From NCBI GenBank assembly GCA_019752115.1, contig JAIEMN010000023.1, positions 62,001 to 126,000 on the forward strand: a DNA stretch of 64,000 nt, read 5' to 3'. The notes under the pieces were generated by a model. The model was not told the DNA's origin. It saw nothing but the letters and a program-made list of their open reading frames with translations, and did not search any database. Shown here piece after piece: positions 38,980 to 53,305 of the stretch. The stretch is from Gemmatimonadaceae bacterium. Its GTDB lineage: Bacteria > Gemmatimonadota > Gemmatimonadetes > Gemmatimonadales > Gemmatimonadaceae. Position 1 is the stretch's first letter; each line of letters opens with the position of its first letter. Made by a program: the position numbers and the translations under genes.

Positions 38980-39311
38980 GCGACATCTACGCATGGACGC
39001 AGGACGGGTTCATTCCCGATCCAGACGGCGAGTATGTACCGCTTGAGGAGTACGAAGCGATAGAGGCGAAGCTGTCCAAGGTTCGTCTGTTGACGCTGCA
39101 ACACAGCGCGCTCAACCGTGGGAAGCTGACCGATGTTGTGTTCCGCTCGGAAACGTGGGATGCTCTGCTCGCAGAACTGGCCACGCTGGAGCCCCGTGAC
39201 CCATGCACATGCGCTGGTGACAACGGCGACGGGTCGCGTTTGGTCTGCGCGCATTGCGGGGGATTGCGCACTCCCTCCACCCCGCCCGCGCGCGACGGGG
39301 GGAACGGGTGA
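38976..39311 (+). CDS. Phage hypothetical protein with CTC/CAHC motif
   Basis: 111 residues. The acidic N-terminus (DGFIPDPDGEYVPLEEYEA) is followed by a helix. A C-terminal CTCAGDNGDGS and LVCAHCGG pair could form a small zinc ribbon. The tail STPPARDGGNG again overlaps the next gene's Shine-Dalgarno. GTG start at 38976 overlapping the previous stop. Function unknown. Confidence 0.55.
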   Translation: MSDIYAWTQDGFIPDPDGEYVPLEEYEAIEAKLSKVRLLTLQHSALNRGKLTDVVFRSETWDALLAELATLEPRDPCTCAGDNGDGSRLVCAHCGGLRTPSTPPARDGGNG

Positions 39312-39643
39312 TGAACAGCGACGTCTTCCGCGCCCGCATTCGGACGCTGCACACGCTGCTCGACGCGATCCTCGCGGGCACCACCACGGCGCCCGCGCTC
39401 GAGCAGCAGCTTGGGATCCCGCAGCGCACGCTGGTCGACCATCTCCACCTGCTGGAAGCGCTCGTTGCGATCCAGCGCTGGCGCGTACCCGGCCAGCCGA
39501 CGACGACGCGCACGATCAGGCCCACCAGCCGAGCCGTCGCCTTGCGCGATGCGTTCGGGGCGATCGTGCGCACGGTGGAACCGCAACCGGACGCCCCCTG
39601 GGCCCCCGCCCCATGGCGGCATCCCTACCGGCGGTCGGCATGA
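39311..39643 (+). CDS. Helix-turn-helix phage protein
   Basis: 110 residues. Positions about 10-55 (RTLHTLLDAILAGTTTAPAL, then LGIPQRTLVDHLHLLEALVA) form a winged-helix/ArsR- or IclR-like DNA-binding fold, followed by a beta-wing (WRVPGQPTTTRTIRP). The ATG at 39311 overlaps the previous stop; a GTG at 39308 is an alternative. It precedes the helicase gene and overlaps its start (ATGA), so it may regulate or assist the replication genes. Confidence 0.65.
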   Translation: MNSDVFRARIRTLHTLLDAILAGTTTAPALEQQLGIPQRTLVDHLHLLEALVAIQRWRVPGQPTTTRTIRPTSRAVALRDAFGAIVRTVEPQPDAPWAPAPWRHPYRRSA

Positions 39644-42207
39644 GCGCGCCACTGTTGCTCGACGCGGACGCGCCGACGCGCCCCCGGCTCGCCCTGCGAC
39701 CGTACCAGCGCTTGGCCATCGACGCCGCCTACCAGTGGCACGCCACCAACGAGGGCAACTGTCTCCTCGTGGTCCCCACCGGCGGCGGCAAGTCGCTCAT
39801 CATGGGCACGCTCGCGGCCGAAGCCGTGAGCGGCGGCGCGCGCGTCTGTGTCATCGCGCACCGCAAGGAACTCATCGAGCAGAACTGGAAGGCGCTGCAG
39901 CACGCCGGCCTGAAGGCGCTCGACTGCGGGATCATTTCCGGCCAGCTCGGCCGGAAAGATCGCGCCACGCCGGCGACCGTCGCGTCGATCCAGACCCTCG
40001 CGCGCGCGCCGTTCAACTACGGCCCGTTTGACCTACTGCTGATCGATGAGGCGCATCTCGTGCCCCGCTCCGAGGACACCGCGTACCGCAAGGTGCTCGA
40101 GGCCTTCCGCACGAAGAACCCGAACGTCCGCACCATCGGGCTCACCGCCACGCCGTACCGCTTGGATAGCGGGCGGTTGGACACCGGCGAGGGCCGCGTC
40201 TTCCACGAGGTCGCGTACGAGATCAGCATCCAGACCCTGCTCGATGGCGGGTATCTGGCGCCGCTGATCTCCAAGGCCACGCTCACCCGCTACGACGTCA
40301 CCGGCGTCGCGATGCGCGGCGGGGAGTACGTGGCGGAGGCGTTGCAGTCGGCCGTCGACGATCCCGCGACGACGGCCGCCATCGTCGAGGAGCTCGCGCG
40401 CCTGGGCGCGGATCGCCGCCGCTGGCTCGTGTTCTGTGTCGGCGTCGCGCATGCCGAGCACATGGCGGAGGCGCTTACCGCGGCGGGCTTCCCCGCGGCC
40501 GCCGTCCACGGCGGGCTCTCGGCGCACGAGCGCAGTGCCCGGCTCGGGGCGCTGCGCAACGGCACGCTCCGCGTGCTCACGAACTGCGACGTGCTCACCA
40601 CGGGGTATGATGAACCCAGCATCGACCTCCTCGCCCTCTGCCGGCCAACGGCGTCGACGGGCCTGCACGTGCAGATGCTCGGCCGCGGATTTCGCACCGC
40701 GCCGGGGAAGACGGACTGCATTGCAGAAGGCCAGCTCATCCTCACGGACAGCGGCCTTGTACCCATCGAACAGGTGACGCCGCAGATGCGGGTGTGGGAT
40801 GGCGTCGAATTTGTCACCCATGCGGGCGTTATCGCTCGCGGCGAACAGGAGGTCATCGAGTATGCCGGACTTACCGCAACCCCGGATCACCGCGTCTGGA
40901 CGACGGAAGGCTGGAAGAGCCTTGGGCAGTGTGCCATCGAACAAGTTGCCATCGCTGTTACCGGAATTGGTCGGACGCCAGTTCGGGAAGTTGATCGTGT
41001 CTTCCGGAGAGGTGTTGCGCGAGTCGACGAAGGCACGCTTGCACACTCGATGTGCCGTATGCGGCACGGAAGCGACGAAGGAGTACACGAGCCTGATGCG
41101 TGGAACCGCGGGATGTCGGTCGTGCGCGAAGCCCCGAGTCGTTCCGAAGTGGCTTCTCATGCGAGCGATCGCCGCAAAGCAGCGGTGCACCAATCCAAAG
41201 GATCGGCGGTTCGCGGACTATGGGGGACGTGGGATTCGATTCGAGTTTGCGTCGCCGACGGCGATGGGTCGATGGGTGATGGATCACCTTGGCTTGCATC
41301 CGGATTTGCAGCTGGATCGGATCAACAACGAAGGGCCATACGGTCCAGGCAATCTCCGGTGGGCGACGCCAGAACAGAATCAGCGGAACACACGCAAGCA
41401 GTCGCGGGCCGCTACGCGCGCGTCTACGACATCCTGAACTGTGGACCGCGCCGTCGCTTCACTGCGGCGGGGCTGCTCGTGCACAACTGCTTGGTTTTGG
41501 ACTTTAGCGGCAACTGCCTCACGCACGGGCCGGTCGATGCCGTGCGTGTCCGCGATCCCAAGAAACGCGGCAAGCAGGAGGCGCCGGCCAAGGAATGCCC
41601 GACGTGCCAGGAGATCGTTGGCACCGCGACGCGGACGTGTCCCCGGTGTGGCCACGCGTTTCCGCCCCCGGCGCCCCCCCAGCTCGCGCCGGCGGCGTTA
41701 CTCGCGCCGGTGATGTCGACGGAGAAGCTCCCGCCGCGCTGGGTCGACGTCACGCGCGTCGAGTATGCGTTGCACCGCTCCAAGGATCCCGCGAAGACGA
41801 TCCCGACGCTCCGGGTGGACTACTTCTTCCACTTCCAGCTCGTCGCGTCCGAGTACATCTGCGTCGAGCACGTCGGCTTCGCGCGCGACAAGGCTGCGGC
41901 ATGGTGGGCCGACCATCTGGGCGGCCCGTGCCCGCGCACGGTGGCGGAGGCCCTTGAGGCCGCGCCGGGGTTGGAAGTCCCGATCGCGATCGCGCTGGAG
42001 CGCGATGGGCGCTACGAGCGCGTGGTGAATTGGCGCTACGTCGAGGCGCCCGCCGCGCCGTCTGCGGATCGGAACTGTGTGTTTTGCGCGCGCTGGGATG
42101 ACCTGCTGCAGACCTGTGCCCACTGGAATGCCACGCCGCCGGACGATGTCCGGGCGGTCGGGTGTGAGGCGTTCCAGTCCCTTGCTGACGAACCCCTCCC
42201 CTTCTGA
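39640..42207 (+). CDS. DEAH-box superfamily II helicase precursor, interrupted by an intein
   Basis: The precursor has 855 residues; removal of the 257-residue intein (360-616) would leave about 598. Helicase motif I is PTGGGKS (46-52), motif II is DEAH (136-139) and motif III is TATPYR. Motif VI (MLGRGFRTAPGKTD) ends exactly at the intein junction and resumes with CLVLDFSGN. After the helicase core come a zinc ribbon (CPTC...CPRC, about 652-672) and a Cys-rich C-terminal domain (FCARW, TCAHW, GCEAF). Such COG1061-like helicases open replication origins or assist phage recombination. The ATG at 39640 overlaps the previous stop. Function requires splicing, since the intein splits the ATP-hydrolysis motif region. 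Confidence 0.9.
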   Translation: MSAPLLLDADAPTRPRLALRPYQRLAIDAAYQWHATNEGNCLLVVPTGGGKSLIMGTLAAEAVSGGARVCVIAHRKELIEQNWKALQHAGLKALDCGIISGQLGRKDRATPATVASIQTLARAPFNYGPFDLLLIDEAHLVPRSEDTAYRKVLEAFRTKNPNVRTIGLTATPYRLDSGRLDTGEGRVFHEVAYEISIQTLLDGGYLAPLISKATLTRYDVTGVAMRGGEYVAEALQSAVDDPATTAAIVEELARLGADRRRWLVFCVGVAHAEHMAEALTAAGFPAAAVHGGLSAHERSARLGALRNGTLRVLTNCDVLTTGYDEPSIDLLALCRPTASTGLHVQMLGRGFRTAPGKTDCIAEGQLILTDSGLVPIEQVTPQMRVWDGVEFVTHAGVIARGEQEVIEYAGLTATPDHRVWTTEGWKSLGQCAIEQVAIAVTGIGRTPVREVDRVFRRGVARVDEGTLAHSMCRMRHGSDEGVHEPDAWNRGMSVVREAPSRSEVASHASDRRKAAVHQSKGSAVRGLWGTWDSIRVCVADGDGSMGDGSPWLASGFAAGSDQQRRAIRSRQSPVGDARTESAEHTQAVAGRYARVYDILNCGPRRRFTAAGLLVHNCLVLDFSGNCLTHGPVDAVRVRDPKKRGKQEAPAKECPTCQEIVGTATRTCPRCGHAFPPPAPPQLAPAALLAPVMSTEKLPPRWVDVTRVEYALHRSKDPAKTIPTLRVDYFFHFQLVASEYICVEHVGFARDKAAAWWADHLGGPCPRTVAEALEAAPGLEVPIAIALERDGRYERVVNWRYVEAPAAPSADRNCVFCARWDDLLQTCAHWNATPPDDVRAVGCEAFQSLADEPLPF
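40847..40853 (+). promoter_or_regulatory. Internal Shine-Dalgarno AGGAGGT for the nested endonuclease
   Basis: A perfect AGGAGGT at 40847-40853 lies 8 nt before the ATG at 40862, inside the intein-coding sequence. In the intein frame the same bases encode part of EQEVIE. It decides the start of the nested gene. Confidence 0.8.
40862..41437 (+). CDS. HNH homing-type endonuclease nested out of frame in the intein
   Basis: This 191-residue protein is read in the +1 frame relative to the intein. It has the layout of phage HNH homing endonucleases: VGRQFGKLIVSS (about 37-48), a zinc-type pair RCAVC and CRSC (Cys 64, 67, 85, 88), KQRCTNP and YGGRGIRF (106-127), and LDRINNEGPYGPGNLRWAT (151-169) as the HNH core. 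The ATG at 40862 is preceded by AGGAGGT at 8 nt; an earlier in-frame ATG at 40799 lacks such a site. The stop lies in intein block F. It would cut the intein-free helicase allele and so spread the element. Normally such a domain is in frame with the splicing domains; here it is not. Confidence 0.85.
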   Translation: MPDLPQPRITASGRRKAGRALGSVPSNKLPSLLPELVGRQFGKLIVSSGEVLRESTKARLHTRCAVCGTEATKEYTSLMRGTAGCRSCAKPRVVPKWLLMRAIAAKQRCTNPKDRRFADYGGRGIRFEFASPTAMGRWVMDHLGLHPDLQLDRINNEGPYGPGNLRWATPEQNQRNTRKQSRAATRASTTS

Positions 42208-42824: not shown

Positions 42825-43285
42825 TCATGCCACGCCCCTACACCATCAAGGCTCATCCTACGACCTACGCCGGCGTGCGCTTCCGCTCTCGACTGGAGGC
42901 GCGCTGGGCCGCGTTCTTCGACCTCGCGCAGTGGAAGTGGCAGTACGAACCGATCGACCTCGCCGGTTGGTCACCGGACTTCTTGGTGCAGATCCCGTGC
43001 GGGCATTCCGAATGCCCGCCGACGCACGATCTCTACGTCGAGGTGAAGCCGTACACGAGCCTCGAGGAGTTTCGTGACCATGTCGCCGCCTCGATGATGA
43101 CCGGCTTGGCCGTCATCTACGATCCGGCGCCCGCGCTGTTCGGCGTGTCGCCCGTCGTCACGGAGTTCGAGCTCGTGCACGGCTCCGGCGGCGGCATCGA
43201 GTCCGTCATGGGCTGGGTGCACAACTGGGACGCGCTGTGGAAGGAAGCCGGCAACATCACGCAATGGAGGAAGCCGCGTGGCTGA
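42797..43285 (+). CDS. PD-(D/E)XK-like nuclease-fold phage protein
   Basis: 162 residues. RFRSRLEARWAAFFD, then YEPIDLAGWSPDFLV and LYVEVKPY give the Glu, Asp and E-x-K pattern of PD-(D/E)XK nucleases in the right order. This family is common in phage replication or recombination modules. The GTG at 42797 follows GAGGAG by 5 nt. ATGs at 42806 and 42827 are alternatives; the last avoids a 28-bp overlap but has no Shine-Dalgarno. Its end overlaps the start of the primase gene by 8 bp. Confidence 0.75.
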   Translation: MVLMETSRLIMPRPYTIKAHPTTYAGVRFRSRLEARWAAFFDLAQWKWQYEPIDLAGWSPDFLVQIPCGHSECPPTHDLYVEVKPYTSLEEFRDHVAASMMTGLAVIYDPAPALFGVSPVVTEFELVHGSGGGIESVMGWVHNWDALWKEAGNITQWRKPRG

Positions 43286-46342: not shown

Positions 46343-46726
46343 ATGCCCATCACGCCGTTGTCGCCTGTGGAAAAGTCTGTGCGCAAGTCCGCAAGCGGTC
46401 GCCCGTTGCGCGGGGCGGCCGCGGATCCGGCGAAGCGTGGGCGCGGCCCGAAAAAGGGCGCGCCGAATGCCGGTCGGCCGCCTAACGAGTTTCGCGAGCA
46501 CATGCGCGCGTTGGTGTCGCGCGCGGACGTGACCAAGGCGTTGGAGGCCGTGCTCAAGTCGCCCACGCATCCGCACTTCATGGCGGCCTACAAGATGGCG
46601 TGCGAGTTCGGCTACGGCCGCGCAGTGCAGGCGGTGGAGCATGCGGGGCACGGCGGCGGACCGATGGAGCTGCGCATCGTGCATGAGGTGATCGACCCCA
46701 GTGAGGCCGATGGCGACGACGCGTGA
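46343..46726 (+). CDS. Putative terminase small subunit
   Basis: 127 residues. A basic, Gly/Pro-rich N-terminus (RGRGPKKGAPNAGRPPNEF) is followed by helices (FREHMRALVSRADVTKALEAV) and an acidic tail. The position directly before and overlapping the large terminase gene, and the layout (DNA-binding N-terminus, oligomerising middle), fit TerS, which recognises pac or cos DNA. Sequence similarity is weak, so the call rests mainly on context. Confidence 0.7.
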   Translation: MPITPLSPVEKSVRKSASGRPLRGAAADPAKRGRGPKKGAPNAGRPPNEFREHMRALVSRADVTKALEAVLKSPTHPHFMAAYKMACEFGYGRAVQAVEHAGHGGGPMELRIVHEVIDPSEADGDDA

Positions 46727-47984: not shown

Positions 47985-49613
47985 ATGGCCGACTCTGTCT
48001 CGCAGACCATTCCGGGCAAGGCCCCGGCTGACCAGCGCCCCGACTTCAAGCGCCCGGAGTACAAAGCGGGTGAGTGGGCTCGCGCCCTCTCCCGCGCCTT
48101 CATGGCCGGCACGCGCGGCGTGCGCTCCCTGGGTGAGACGGCGCTGCCGCGCTGGCCCGCCGAACGACCCGCGTTTTACAAGCTGCGCTCGACGATCGCG
48201 CAGGTCACGCGCTACTACGCGCGCACGGTCGAGGCGACGGTCGGCATGATCGCCGGCACGCCACCGACGTTGTCGGACACGGTCGATCCGGTGATCGAGC
48301 AGGACTGGGAGGACATCGACGGGCGCGGCACGCACGGCGAGGTGTTCGCGCGCCAGCTCACCGAGGAGCTGCTCGTCGGCGGCTTCGTCGGGATCCTCGT
48401 CGACGCGCCACCGGTGCCCGACGGCGTCCGGCTCACGCTCGCGAGCGAGCAGGCGCTCGGTCTGCGTCCGTACTGGGTGCTCGTCACGGCGGACCAGATC
48501 CTGAGCTGGGTGGTCGAGGCGCCGCAGTGGCCGGAGCTGATCCAAGCCTACGCGGCGGGGACGCTCACGGCCGACCAGGTGAAGGCGCTCGCCAAGCAGG
48601 CGATCGTGCGGCAGGTCGTGATTCACGAGCCGACCGATGTCGCCGCCGGCACGTTCGGAATGCGCACGGCAGATCGCTATCGCGTGCTGCAGCTCACCGC
48701 CGCCGGCGTCACCTTCGCGGTGTGGGAGCATCGGGAGGCCGAAGGCGCGTCGGGCGAGCACTTCGCACTGATCAGCACCGGCGCGATGCGCGGCGCGAAG
48801 AACGCGCCGCTCACCGCGATCCCGCTCGCCATCGGCTATCCCGGGCGGCCGTCGGCGCCGTTCGTGTCGGAGCCCAAGCTGCTCGCGATCGCCGAGCTCA
48901 ACCTCGACCACTACGTGCTCACGGCGGACCGCCGCTACCTCATGCGCCTCACGCACGCGCCGACGCTCTTCCTCGCCGGCGTGGGCGTGGACCGCGACGA
49001 CGACGGCAACGAGCGGCCGCTCGAGGTGGGCCCCAATTCGGTGGTCCGCGCCACGGACGCTCAGGCGAAGATGTCGTGGGTTGCGGCCGATCCGAACGCG
49101 CTCGCCGAGAGCCGCCAGGAACGCGACGAGATCGTCCGCCAGATCGCCGCGCTCGGCCTCTCGTTCCTCGCCAAGGACCGACGCACGAGCACCGAGACGG
49201 CGAAGGGGAGGTCGCTCGACATGGCAGCCGAGAACCAGTCGCACGCGAGCGTTGCGCGTGGGCTGCAGGACCTGCTCGAGCAGGCGTTCACGTTCCACGC
49301 GGCCTACCGCGGCGTCCAGCCACCGGAGATCGAGATGCACACCGCCTACGCCTCGCCGGACGTCGACCCGCAGCTCGCCGCGCTTGTGTGGCAGGCGGTG
49401 CTCAAGGGCGTGCTCGAGGTGTCGGACTGGGTCGCGTATCTCCGCACCGGCAAGCTGCCCGACAGCGCCTCGATGGCGATGACCTCGAGCGCCCTGCTGG
49501 CAGCGGCAGAAGCCGATGCCGCGGCCGCGGCCGAGCAGGCTGCGCAGACGGGGAACGCAGGCCAGTTGGCCGCCGATGGGGCGGACAGCGTACCGACGGC
49601 GGCGGCCGCGTGA
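47985..49613 (+). CDS. Portal protein (DUF4055-type)
   Basis: 542 residues. The gene directly follows terL. The protein has the long helical portal layout: an N-terminal clip/wing region, SEPKLLAIAELNLDHYVLTA, MSWVAADPNALAESRQERDE and a C-terminal crown-like helix rich in Ala (AEADAAAAAEQAAQ). Portals form the dodecameric vertex through which DNA enters and to which the connector binds. The DUF4055 assignment is from memory of the family pattern. The Shine-Dalgarno is weak, but the start is well separated from the terL stop (6 bp). Confidence 0.85.
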   Translation: MADSVSQTIPGKAPADQRPDFKRPEYKAGEWARALSRAFMAGTRGVRSLGETALPRWPAERPAFYKLRSTIAQVTRYYARTVEATVGMIAGTPPTLSDTVDPVIEQDWEDIDGRGTHGEVFARQLTEELLVGGFVGILVDAPPVPDGVRLTLASEQALGLRPYWVLVTADQILSWVVEAPQWPELIQAYAAGTLTADQVKALAKQAIVRQVVIHEPTDVAAGTFGMRTADRYRVLQLTAAGVTFAVWEHREAEGASGEHFALISTGAMRGAKNAPLTAIPLAIGYPGRPSAPFVSEPKLLAIAELNLDHYVLTADRRYLMRLTHAPTLFLAGVGVDRDDDGNERPLEVGPNSVVRATDAQAKMSWVAADPNALAESRQERDEIVRQIAALGLSFLAKDRRTSTETAKGRSLDMAAENQSHASVARGLQDLLEQAFTFHAAYRGVQPPEIEMHTAYASPDVDPQLAALVWQAVLKGVLEVSDWVAYLRTGKLPDSASMAMTSSALLAAAEADAAAAAEQAAQTGNAGQLAADGADSVPTAAAA

Positions 49614-51250: not shown

Positions 51251-51982
51251 ATGTCGCTGAAGATGTTCGACACGAAGGACGCGATCCCGGAAGCGCTGCG
51301 CGAGTCCGCGATCGAAACGAAGGACGGCAAGTGGGCCGTCTCCGACACCGAAGGGCTCCGCAGCTCGCAGCAGCGCATCCTCGACGAGAAGAAGCGCCTG
51401 CAGGACGAGTTTGAGCAGATGAAGCAGTCGCTCGGCGGGCTGAGCCCGGAGCAGATCAAGAAGTTCCGCGAAGACATGACGCGCCTCGAAGACGAACAGG
51501 CCCGCAAGGCCGGCGACTTCGACAAGATCCTTGAGAAGCGCATCGGCGAGACGAAGGCCGAATACGAGAAGCGCCTGGCTGAGCTGGCGCCGTACAAGCA
51601 GAAGTATCAGGACCGGGAACTCGAGATCGCGATCCGCGATGCCGCGAGCAAGGCGGGCGTCATCGCCACGGACCTGCCCTTCGTGCTGGACATCGTGAAG
51701 GGCCGCCGCGTCGCGTACGACGAAAAGACCGGCAAGCCGGTGGTGCTCGACAAGGATGGCGATCCGACGGGGCTCACCGTCGAGAAGTTCTTCGCCGACA
51801 CGTTCAAGACGGAAGCGCCGAAGTTCTACGAACCGGCCGGCGGATCCGGCGGTGGCGCGGGTGGCGGCAACAGCGGTGGCAAGCCCACCGGCACGGCTGG
51901 CGCGGTGTCCATCACCGACAACGCGGGGTTCATCGCGAACCTCGACAAGATCGCGGCTGGTCAGGTCAAGGTCGCGTCGTAA
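51251..51982 (+). CDS. Phage scaffold-like protein
   Basis: 243 residues. After a short N-terminus, residues about 35-120 form a long charged coiled coil (LDEKKRLQDEFEQMKQSLGG, LEDEQARKAGDFDKILEKR), followed by a globular part and a Gly-rich linker (GGSGGGAGGGNSGG). A C-terminal helix (NAGFIANLDKIAAGQVKV) is the usual coat-binding end. The position immediately before the major coat gene and the length fit GP20/P22-like scaffolding proteins, which guide capsid assembly and are then released or cut. Confidence 0.85.
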   Translation: MSLKMFDTKDAIPEALRESAIETKDGKWAVSDTEGLRSSQQRILDEKKRLQDEFEQMKQSLGGLSPEQIKKFREDMTRLEDEQARKAGDFDKILEKRIGETKAEYEKRLAELAPYKQKYQDRELEIAIRDAASKAGVIATDLPFVLDIVKGRRVAYDEKTGKPVVLDKDGDPTGLTVEKFFADTFKTEAPKFYEPAGGSGGGAGGGNSGGKPTGTAGAVSITDNAGFIANLDKIAAGQVKVAS

Positions 51983-52144: not shown

Positions 52145-53305
52145 ATGGCCAACACACTCACGGACATTGTCCCGATCCTCGTCGCCCAGGGGCTGCAGAC
52201 GCTGCGCAATGCGTGCGTCATGCCGCGTCTGGTCAACACCGACTACTCGAACGAGCCGGCGAATCAGGGCGACGTCGTCAACCTCTGGATCCCCTCGGCG
52301 CAGTCGGTGGCCGACGTGTCCCCGAGCGCGGCGCCGATTCAGGCGGCCGACTCGCAGCCGGTGAAGGCGCAGATCCCGCTCAACAAGTGGCGCCGCTCGG
52401 GCTTCTATCTGACCGACAAGCAGATGGAAGAGATCGTGAGCGTGCCGGGCTTCAAGTCGAAGCAGACGGGCGAAGCGGTGAAGGCGCTCGCCGAGGACAT
52501 CAACGCGTTCATCTTCCAGCAGTACAAGAAGGTGTACGGCTACCAGGGCACGGCGGGCACCACGCCGTTCGCCACGGACGTCTCGGCCGCGACCGGCGCC
52601 CGCAAGCAGCTCAACCTGCAGCGTGCCCCGCTCGCTGATCGCCGCTTCGTCCTCGACGTGAACGCCGAAGCCAACGCGCTCGGCCTCGCGGCCTTCAACG
52701 CGCAGTACTCGTCGGGCACGACCTCGGCCATCATCGATGGCACGCTCGGTCGTCGCCTCGGCTTCGACTTCGCGATGGACCAGCAGGTCCCGACGCACAC
52801 GTCGACGGCCCTCTCGGCCGGCGCGGCGACGGTGAACGGCGCGCAGACGGTCAACCAGGGCAGCACGGACGCCGGTCGCACGGGCACCGTCTCGATCGCC
52901 AAGGCGACCAACGCGTCCAACCTCGTGGCGGGCGACATCATCAGCTTCGCGGGTGATAACCAGACGTACGTGGTCCTCGCGGACGTCACGCTCGCCGTCG
53001 GCAACACGACGGTCAGCATCGCGCCGGCCCTGCAGACCGCCAAGTCGGGCGGTGAAGCCATGACGCTCCGGGCCACGCACGTGGTGAACCTCGCGTTCCA
53101 CCGCGACGCGTTCGGCTTCGTCTCGCGCCCGCTGGTGACGGCGTCGCAGAACATCGCCGAGATGATGAGCGTGGTCGACCCGGTCTCGGGTGTCGCGCTC
53201 CGCCTCGAGGTAGTGCGCCAGAACAAGCAGTGGCTGTTCGACTTCGACGTGCTCTACGGCGCCGCCTGCGTGCGCCCGGAGCTCGCGACGCGCTACGCCG
53301 GCTGA
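52145..53305 (+). CDS. Major coat protein, P22 gp5-like
   Basis: 386 residues. The start TDIVPILVAQGLQTLRNACV, then MPRLVNTDYSNEPANQGDVV and WRRSGFYLTDKQMEEIV, match the P22-type coat family with the HK97 fold. Residues about 220-325 (from about AGAATVNGAQTVNQG to GEAMTLRA) form an extra Gly/Ala/Thr-rich domain like the P22 insertion domain. The C-terminus returns to the core (VVDPVSGVALRLEVVRQNKQ). It builds the capsid shell. It is preceded by the scaffold gene, as in P22-like modules. Confidence 0.92.
   Translation: MANTLTDIVPILVAQGLQTLRNACVMPRLVNTDYSNEPANQGDVVNLWIPSAQSVADVSPSAAPIQAADSQPVKAQIPLNKWRRSGFYLTDKQMEEIVSVPGFKSKQTGEAVKALAEDINAFIFQQYKKVYGYQGTAGTTPFATDVSAATGARKQLNLQRAPLADRRFVLDVNAEANALGLAAFNAQYSSGTTSAIIDGTLGRRLGFDFAMDQQVPTHTSTALSAGAATVNGAQTVNQGSTDAGRTGTVSIAKATNASNLVAGDIISFAGDNQTYVVLADVTLAVGNTTVSIAPALQTAKSGGEAMTLRATHVVNLAFHRDAFGFVSRPLVTASQNIAEMMSVVDPVSGVALRLEVVRQNKQWLFDFDVLYGAACVRPELATRYAG

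Follow-up and report, generated by a model that had tools for sequence, protein, structure and literature searches.

The intein described here interrupts a helicase gene of a Gemmatimonadaceae bacterium. The window, i.e. the whole stretch of DNA that was analysed, comprises 64,000 nucleotides and corresponds to positions 62001-126000 of its contig, in an assembly of 5.17 Mb. Helicase and intein are encoded in a single uninterrupted open reading frame on the plus strand (39133-42207), not in the two precursor genes of a split intein. The gene is part of a prophage, with a primase at 43278, a large terminase at 46701, a portal at 47985, a scaffold at 51251 and a major head protein at 52145. The locus has the following features, where the start codon of the N-extein is tentative and the reading frame itself opens at 39133.

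39625-40716, plus strand: N-extein, a RadD/YejH-type DEAD/DEAH helicase up to motif VI, ending in QMLGRGFRTAPGKTD (Pfam ResIII 3e-22, Helicase_C 2e-12; NCBIfam RadD_YejH 1.6e-74)
40717-41487, plus strand: class-1-like intein of 257 amino acids, from Cys1 to the terminal His-Asn (sequence motifs, Hint model)
40717-40956, plus strand: Hint N part with blocks A and B, TPDH at 40879-40890 (AF2 pLDDT 93-97 for residues 1-80; C1, T55 and H58 invariant)
40847-40853, plus strand: Shine-Dalgarno sequence AGGAGGT, within the codons of the intein motif EQEVIEY (sequence; duplex -11.0 kcal/mol)
40862-41437, plus strand: HNH endonuclease gene, 191 codons and TGA, in the +1 frame relative to the intein (PHROG_374 HNH endonuclease 4.9e-22, PHROG_3377 2.3e-20; AF2 mean pLDDT 87)
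40862-40951, plus strand: overlap at the edge, where the intein frame encodes Hint block B and the other frame the first 30 HNH residues, predicted disordered (AF2 models; the homologous region of a 930-nt family is constrained in both frames)
40969-41400, plus strand: HNH core with the zinc Cys pairs C64, C67, C85 and C88, YGGRGI and LDRINNEGPYGPGNLRW; the intein frame is predicted to be a disordered, stop-free linker (alignment, AF2)
41411-41487, plus strand: Hint C part, block F RVYDILNCG at about 41419-41445, terminal LVHN at 41476-41487 (AF2 pLDDT 94-95)
41488-42204, plus strand: C-extein, beginning with C+1 LVLDFSGN... and ending in a zinc-ribbon tail (joined exteins align gap-free with phage helicases)

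A 386-codon antisense open reading frame (40033-41193, minus strand) also spans helicase and intein, and is most likely a by-product of the high G+C content.

Once the insert is taken out, the exteins are continuous. Phage helicases match a joined-extein query of 305 residues in one piece over the junction (residues 7-291), with identities of up to 46%. The insert itself, open throughout 40717-41487, has the residues of a class 1 intein: an invariant Cys1, TPDH at residues 55-58 with T55 and H58 invariant, VYDILNCG, and LVHN directly before the Cys at 41488-41490. The search of both frames with Hint and HNH models, proposed in the preliminary description, was successful only in part. Neither frame reached a Hint or HNH model of Pfam or NCBIfam, so profiles were built from the loci instead; PHROG HNH families were matched, and the Hint fold was recovered by structure. 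The AF2 model of the intein is confident at residues 1-80 and 230-258 (pLDDT 93-97) and disordered at 85-229. Its folded part superimposes on the Mtu RecA mini-intein with a Z score of 17.5 (1.9 Å, 119 residues), and 83 chains match the Hint model at Z 8 or more. Splice residues and modelled fold confirm that the insert is an intein, and the same motifs and fold suggest that it splices.

All 191 HNH codons lie within the bounds of the intein, and the Hint C part overlaps the 3′ end of the HNH gene together with its stop codon (41435-41437). The endonuclease is found in the +1 frame instead of the Hint frame. A complete intein in the helicase frame and an out-of-frame HNH gene were the two central claims of the preliminary description, and both were borne out, including coordinates and frames. 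The PHROG_374 and PHROG_3377 matches relate the nuclease to phage HNH families, while its resemblance to solved structures is weak (PacI, Z 4.3 over 80 residues; profile E values of 0.079 for PacI and 0.44 for I-HmuI). PacI is the nuclease that turned up in both solved-structure comparisons. Among the aligned members, the zinc Cys pairs are invariant and the Asn residues N164 and N176 are conserved. All of them have Arg in place of the first His of the canonical HNH motif (D152-R153; R153 at 41318-41320 in the window), and catalysis is therefore not assured by the motif. In the AF2 model of the HNH protein, residues 31-175 are confidently predicted, and residues 1-30, the part overlapping Hint block B, are disordered. 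Intein and HNH proteins are thus each predicted to be disordered where the partner is folded.

Related inteins were collected from phage and bacterial sequences. In tblastn searches of phage records, performed with each frame separately, the same records were found by both frames, with a +1 offset: Gardnerella phage vB_Gva_AB1, several Streptococcus phages and APSE-7. Caulobacter phage RW was added by three-frame translation. Further loci were retrieved by four viral scans and one genome scan; Hint N, Hint C and HNH profiles were then run in six frames, and redundancy was removed. These later scans were free of bias with respect to the HNH frame, because their search patterns were Hint motifs. 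The 247 non-redundant related inteins include 153 continuous ones with the HNH in +1 and 61 continuous ones with the HNH in +2; an HNH in frame with its intein was found in none of these 214 continuous, HNH-bearing, non-redundant inteins. Another 23 are short (21 without HNH, two with an HNH remnant), and ten have stops, most of them (about eight) being split. Family A DNA polymerases contain at least three of the insertion sites. Another is helicase motif VI, where the intein in the window lies, and which is also used in L118, L173, L175, L188, L098 and L121. The preliminary description had proposed to gather homologues of the helicase; distant homologues share the two-frame layout. Judged from sequence, this layout recurs in over 200 further copies of viral and bacterial origin, and therefore represents a class of mobile elements that has been overlooked, not an accident.

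The annotated polymerase records that were inspected show only DNA polymerase at the two-frame intein. In APSE-7 (L004) and related APSE records, the P45-type DNA polymerase carries an intein with a nested +1 HNH, and the annotation reads polymerase only. Slips in the intein frame occur in L158 (929 nt, Eubacterium plexicaudatum, one base missing) and L013 (Ns), and represent either broken host genes or sequencing errors. A free-standing HNH beside the polymerase of Salmonella phage MET_P1_122_58 resembled a member, and was rejected since it lies outside any intein.

Over the HNH gene of the window, the intein frame has no stops. With the HNH protein kept fixed and synonymous codons shuffled, 3.8 would be expected (P = 0.006), and with codons weighted by base composition, 5.9 (P = 0.0015), in line with an earlier rough estimate of four to five. 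The third frame has three stops in the same stretch. Across 186 loci, the intein frame is free of stops in 39,580 HNH codons, compared with about 1,367 expected from synonymous shuffling, and in 96% of the loci the lack of stops is individually significant (P<0.05). The continuous class is by definition stop-free, yet only about ten HNH-bearing loci fall outside it. Copies of 39-46% G+C are included among those with an open intein frame. In the HNH frame, a core stop was found in three of the 214 copies, and the core motif pattern was missed in eleven, those inspected looking like intact variants.

The rates of constraint come from a polymerase-site family of 930 nt, not from the helicase site. 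In 61 equal-length inteins of this family, changes by codon position were counted by parsimony. The third position of the intein codons is fast at nt 0-180 (17 vs 5 and 2), and that of the HNH codons at nt 270-855 (15 vs 7 and 5), with the pattern flipping back after nt 900. At nt 225-269 and 855-899 all codon positions are constrained and none is free. Two-frame dN/dS ratios were computed from 19 close pairs of the same family. In the Hint N region they are 0.32 for the intein and 1.04 for the +1 frame; at nt 147-224, 0.31 for the intein and 0.54 (0.34-0.80) for the HNH; at nt 225-284, 0.68 (0.45-1.17) and 0.27; in the core, 1.20 (1.00-1.39) and 0.24 (0.20-0.29); and at nt 855-914, 0.35 and 0.42 (0.23-0.67). 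Codon positions and dN/dS therefore indicate two dual-coding edges, and a core in which the intein frame only avoids stops. In the 930-nt family, the initial proposal that the same bases are selected in two frames is fully valid only for the edges (about nt 147-284 and 855-914); over the core, the intein is just stop-free. Selection on intein-frame amino acids along the whole HNH was rejected on account of the core dN/dS of 1.2.

The HNH gene appears to have its own translation start. In the 61 polymerase-site copies, stops are common in the +1 frame up to nt 139, while nt 145-870 are clear in all copies except one. An ATG stands at nt 145 in 58 of these copies, with ACG or ATC in the other three. 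The Shine-Dalgarno energy of these copies has a mean of -8.6 kcal/mol, compared with -4.75 (sd 0.53) after synonymous recoding, and none of 200 recodings was as strong. At the same place, the Shine-Dalgarno sequence of the window reaches -11.0 kcal/mol, with a gap of 8 nt between AGGAGGT and the HNH ATG. From the positions of Shine-Dalgarno sequence and ATG, the intein motif KEVIEY(D/E/A)G would double as ribosome-binding site and start codon, a feature absent from the preliminary description. Other subfamilies have HNH starts further downstream, and Shine-Dalgarno candidates there too. Altogether, this argues for an HNH that is made separately, and not as a frameshifted fusion. Mini-inteins without HNH retain both Shine-Dalgarno sequence and ATG (mean -8.8), so that this element also occurs outside the HNH-bearing copies; its retention is consistent with a recent loss of the HNH.

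Such losses can be seen in closely related pairs. L108 and L059 are 99.3% identical over nt 1-295 and 97.8% identical over the final 89 nt; what sets them apart is an in-frame loss of 555 nt of the HNH. A similar in-frame HNH loss separates L165 from L043, at 92-93% identity. The inteins are also more similar than their surroundings: 98.9% nucleotide identity in L059/L108, compared with 85-91% in the flanking exteins, and 96% in L064/L074, compared with 82.5% in the downstream flank. Among 61 genomes of the window's relatives, the intein is present in one. L108 and L165 are natural mini-inteins that arose by clean in-frame deletion of the nested HNH, and the pair of L108 and L059, 98-99% identical outside the deletion, represents a recent loss.

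In the split relatives, a Hint N of 105-127 residues is followed by a stop, the HNH gene, and a Hint C preceded by a start codon, which overlaps the HNH 3′ end in several of them.

Family A DNA polymerases with a split intein and the same HNH gene between its halves: L028 1790-2821, L032 2998-4013, L034 2911-3920, L037 2026-3053, L014 695-1692, L329, L346, L026 1125-1906

In L014, a single contig carries a split intein and a continuous +2-nested intein, and the exteins of both belong to the same polymerase. L026 also has both a split and a continuous +2 HNH intein, probably in one polymerase gene.

We consider it very likely that the element is a mobile intein of two overlapping genes, a self-splicing Hint domain and a separately translated, out-of-frame homing HNH. 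The helicase-frame gene would give rise to one precursor, in which a long disordered linker joins the Hint halves. The Hint domain, as its motifs and fold suggest, would then splice out and leave an intact helicase. A second gene, inside the linker-coding DNA and in the +1 frame, would use its own Shine-Dalgarno sequence and the ATG in KEVIEY to produce a free HNH nuclease. This nuclease may cut intein-free helicase genes, and repair would copy the whole intein in. The occurrence of out-of-frame nesting or splitting only (214 vs 0) could be explained by the stop codon of an in-frame HNH, which would truncate the host protein.

Other explanations can be considered. Ribosomal frameshifting is common in phages, and an HNH without a start of its own could be fused to the N-part of the intein by programmed +1 frameshifting, as the constant +1 relation across the main family would allow. 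However, the +1 frame has stops up to nt 136-139 and then opens at the ATG at 145, the Shine-Dalgarno sequence before this ATG is selected above the synonymous expectation, and a single slip site would not suffice for the members in +2, all of which makes frameshifting quite improbable. Slightly less far-fetched, though still unlikely, is a nuclease that is translated for another use, such as phage packaging or the exclusion of rival phages, with the intein as a safe harbour only. HNH proteins have other roles in phages, and the cutting of intein-free sites can also exclude competitors. Against this stand the nesting of the HNH at the usual place of intein endonucleases, its patchy distribution, the higher similarity of the inteins compared with their flanks, and the repeated clean loss of the HNH while the intein was kept.

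Two further explanations had been named in the preliminary description as ways in which it could be wrong, and neither survived the comparison with homologues. Two compensating indels, i.e. a one-base sequencing or assembly slip at each side of an ordinary in-frame HNH, could give the observed layout in one genome. Yet the frame relation is repeated at several sites, the phages, prophages and isolates that show it number in the hundreds and were sequenced independently, the HNH is out of frame in 214 open inteins and in frame in none, and only L158 and L013 resemble slips. Because distant homologues have the same layout, a sequencing slip is scarcely credible. It is also highly improbable that the HNH frame is a relic in decay and that the intein frame is open as a mere consequence of base composition. 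Mini-inteins that lost the HNH in frame exist (L108 vs L059), and HNH stops occur in a few copies (L156, L189), but the core is interrupted in so few of the copies, and the HNH dN/dS of the one measurable family is so low, that decay does not describe the class. Similarly, a by-product of composition is contradicted by the complete lack of intein-frame stops, significant in nearly all loci, those of 39-46% G+C included. A mobile intein with a nested, separately translated HNH is the reading that we retain.

Parts of this arrangement are familiar from other systems. Split inteins, also called fractured genes, with a homing endonuclease gene between their halves were reportedly described by Dassa et al. 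in 2009, the endonuclease being Vsr-like. The locus of the window resembles them by its free endonuclease gene between Hint N and Hint C, and true split relatives carry this HNH (L028, L032, L034, L037, L014, L329, L346); however, the window intein is continuous and the endonuclease family is a different one. With canonical full-length inteins, such as PI-SceI and TliVMA, it shares the Hint fold, an endonuclease between the Hint N and Hint C halves, and the logic of a mobile element. Their endonuclease, though, is encoded in frame and belongs to the spliced intein protein, whereas that of the window is a separate protein in another frame. Intein endonuclease domains sit at one conserved place (PMC6801210); the nested HNH also lies between Hint N and Hint C, yet out of frame. 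Group I introns with HNH endonucleases (I-HmuI; I-PfoP3I, PMC3428280) are similar in that the HNH is expressed independently inside a self-removing element of phage genes. They differ in that the window element would be removed at the protein level, and its host frame stays open, as that of an intron need not.

The closest described case is the out-of-frame HNH of ShiLan. The ShiLan domain and the Pacc40 insertion have an out-of-frame HNH in an open insertion, without a splicing domain (Arsenault, Gosselin and Gogarten 2025, PMC11855218). ShiLan occurs in mycobacteriophage methylases and is assumed to remain in the protein; its HNH has a GTG start and no Shine-Dalgarno sequence, and leaderless translation has been proposed (PMC11855218). 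Both systems have an HNH of about 190 codons in an insertion through which the host frame stays open, a mobile-looking distribution, and a poorly structured host-frame product over the HNH. The locus in the window differs from ShiLan in that its host frame encodes an intein, recognisable by splice residues and Hint fold, and in that the Shine-Dalgarno sequence and start of the HNH lie inside an intein motif. In agreement with the preliminary description, which knew of no functional intein of this kind, the literature searched yielded no intein whose endonuclease is encoded in a different frame; the search covered open-licence papers only and is no proof of absence.

Mobile inteins are usually described with an in-frame endonuclease. 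Here two proteins share the same DNA, and the arrangement is widespread. The long same-strand overlaps, in which each frame is folded where the other is predicted to be disordered, provide a natural system in which the tolerance of overlapping genes can be tested cleanly. The disordered linkers mark points at which these inteins could be shortened or split for protein engineering, and the phage HNH family, with Arg for the first His, deserves attention as regards its catalytic residues. Nested, HNH-less and split forms occur side by side with the same nuclease family, which offers a testable route from a mini-intein with a free nuclease gene to a split intein. The inteins described here probably represent a large and old class of dual-coding mobile inteins in phages and prophages, with +1 and +2 versions, in polymerases and helicases, and with an internal Shine-Dalgarno sequence in an intein motif. 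This class may feed both mini-inteins, through in-frame loss of the HNH, and split inteins, through opening of the host frame.
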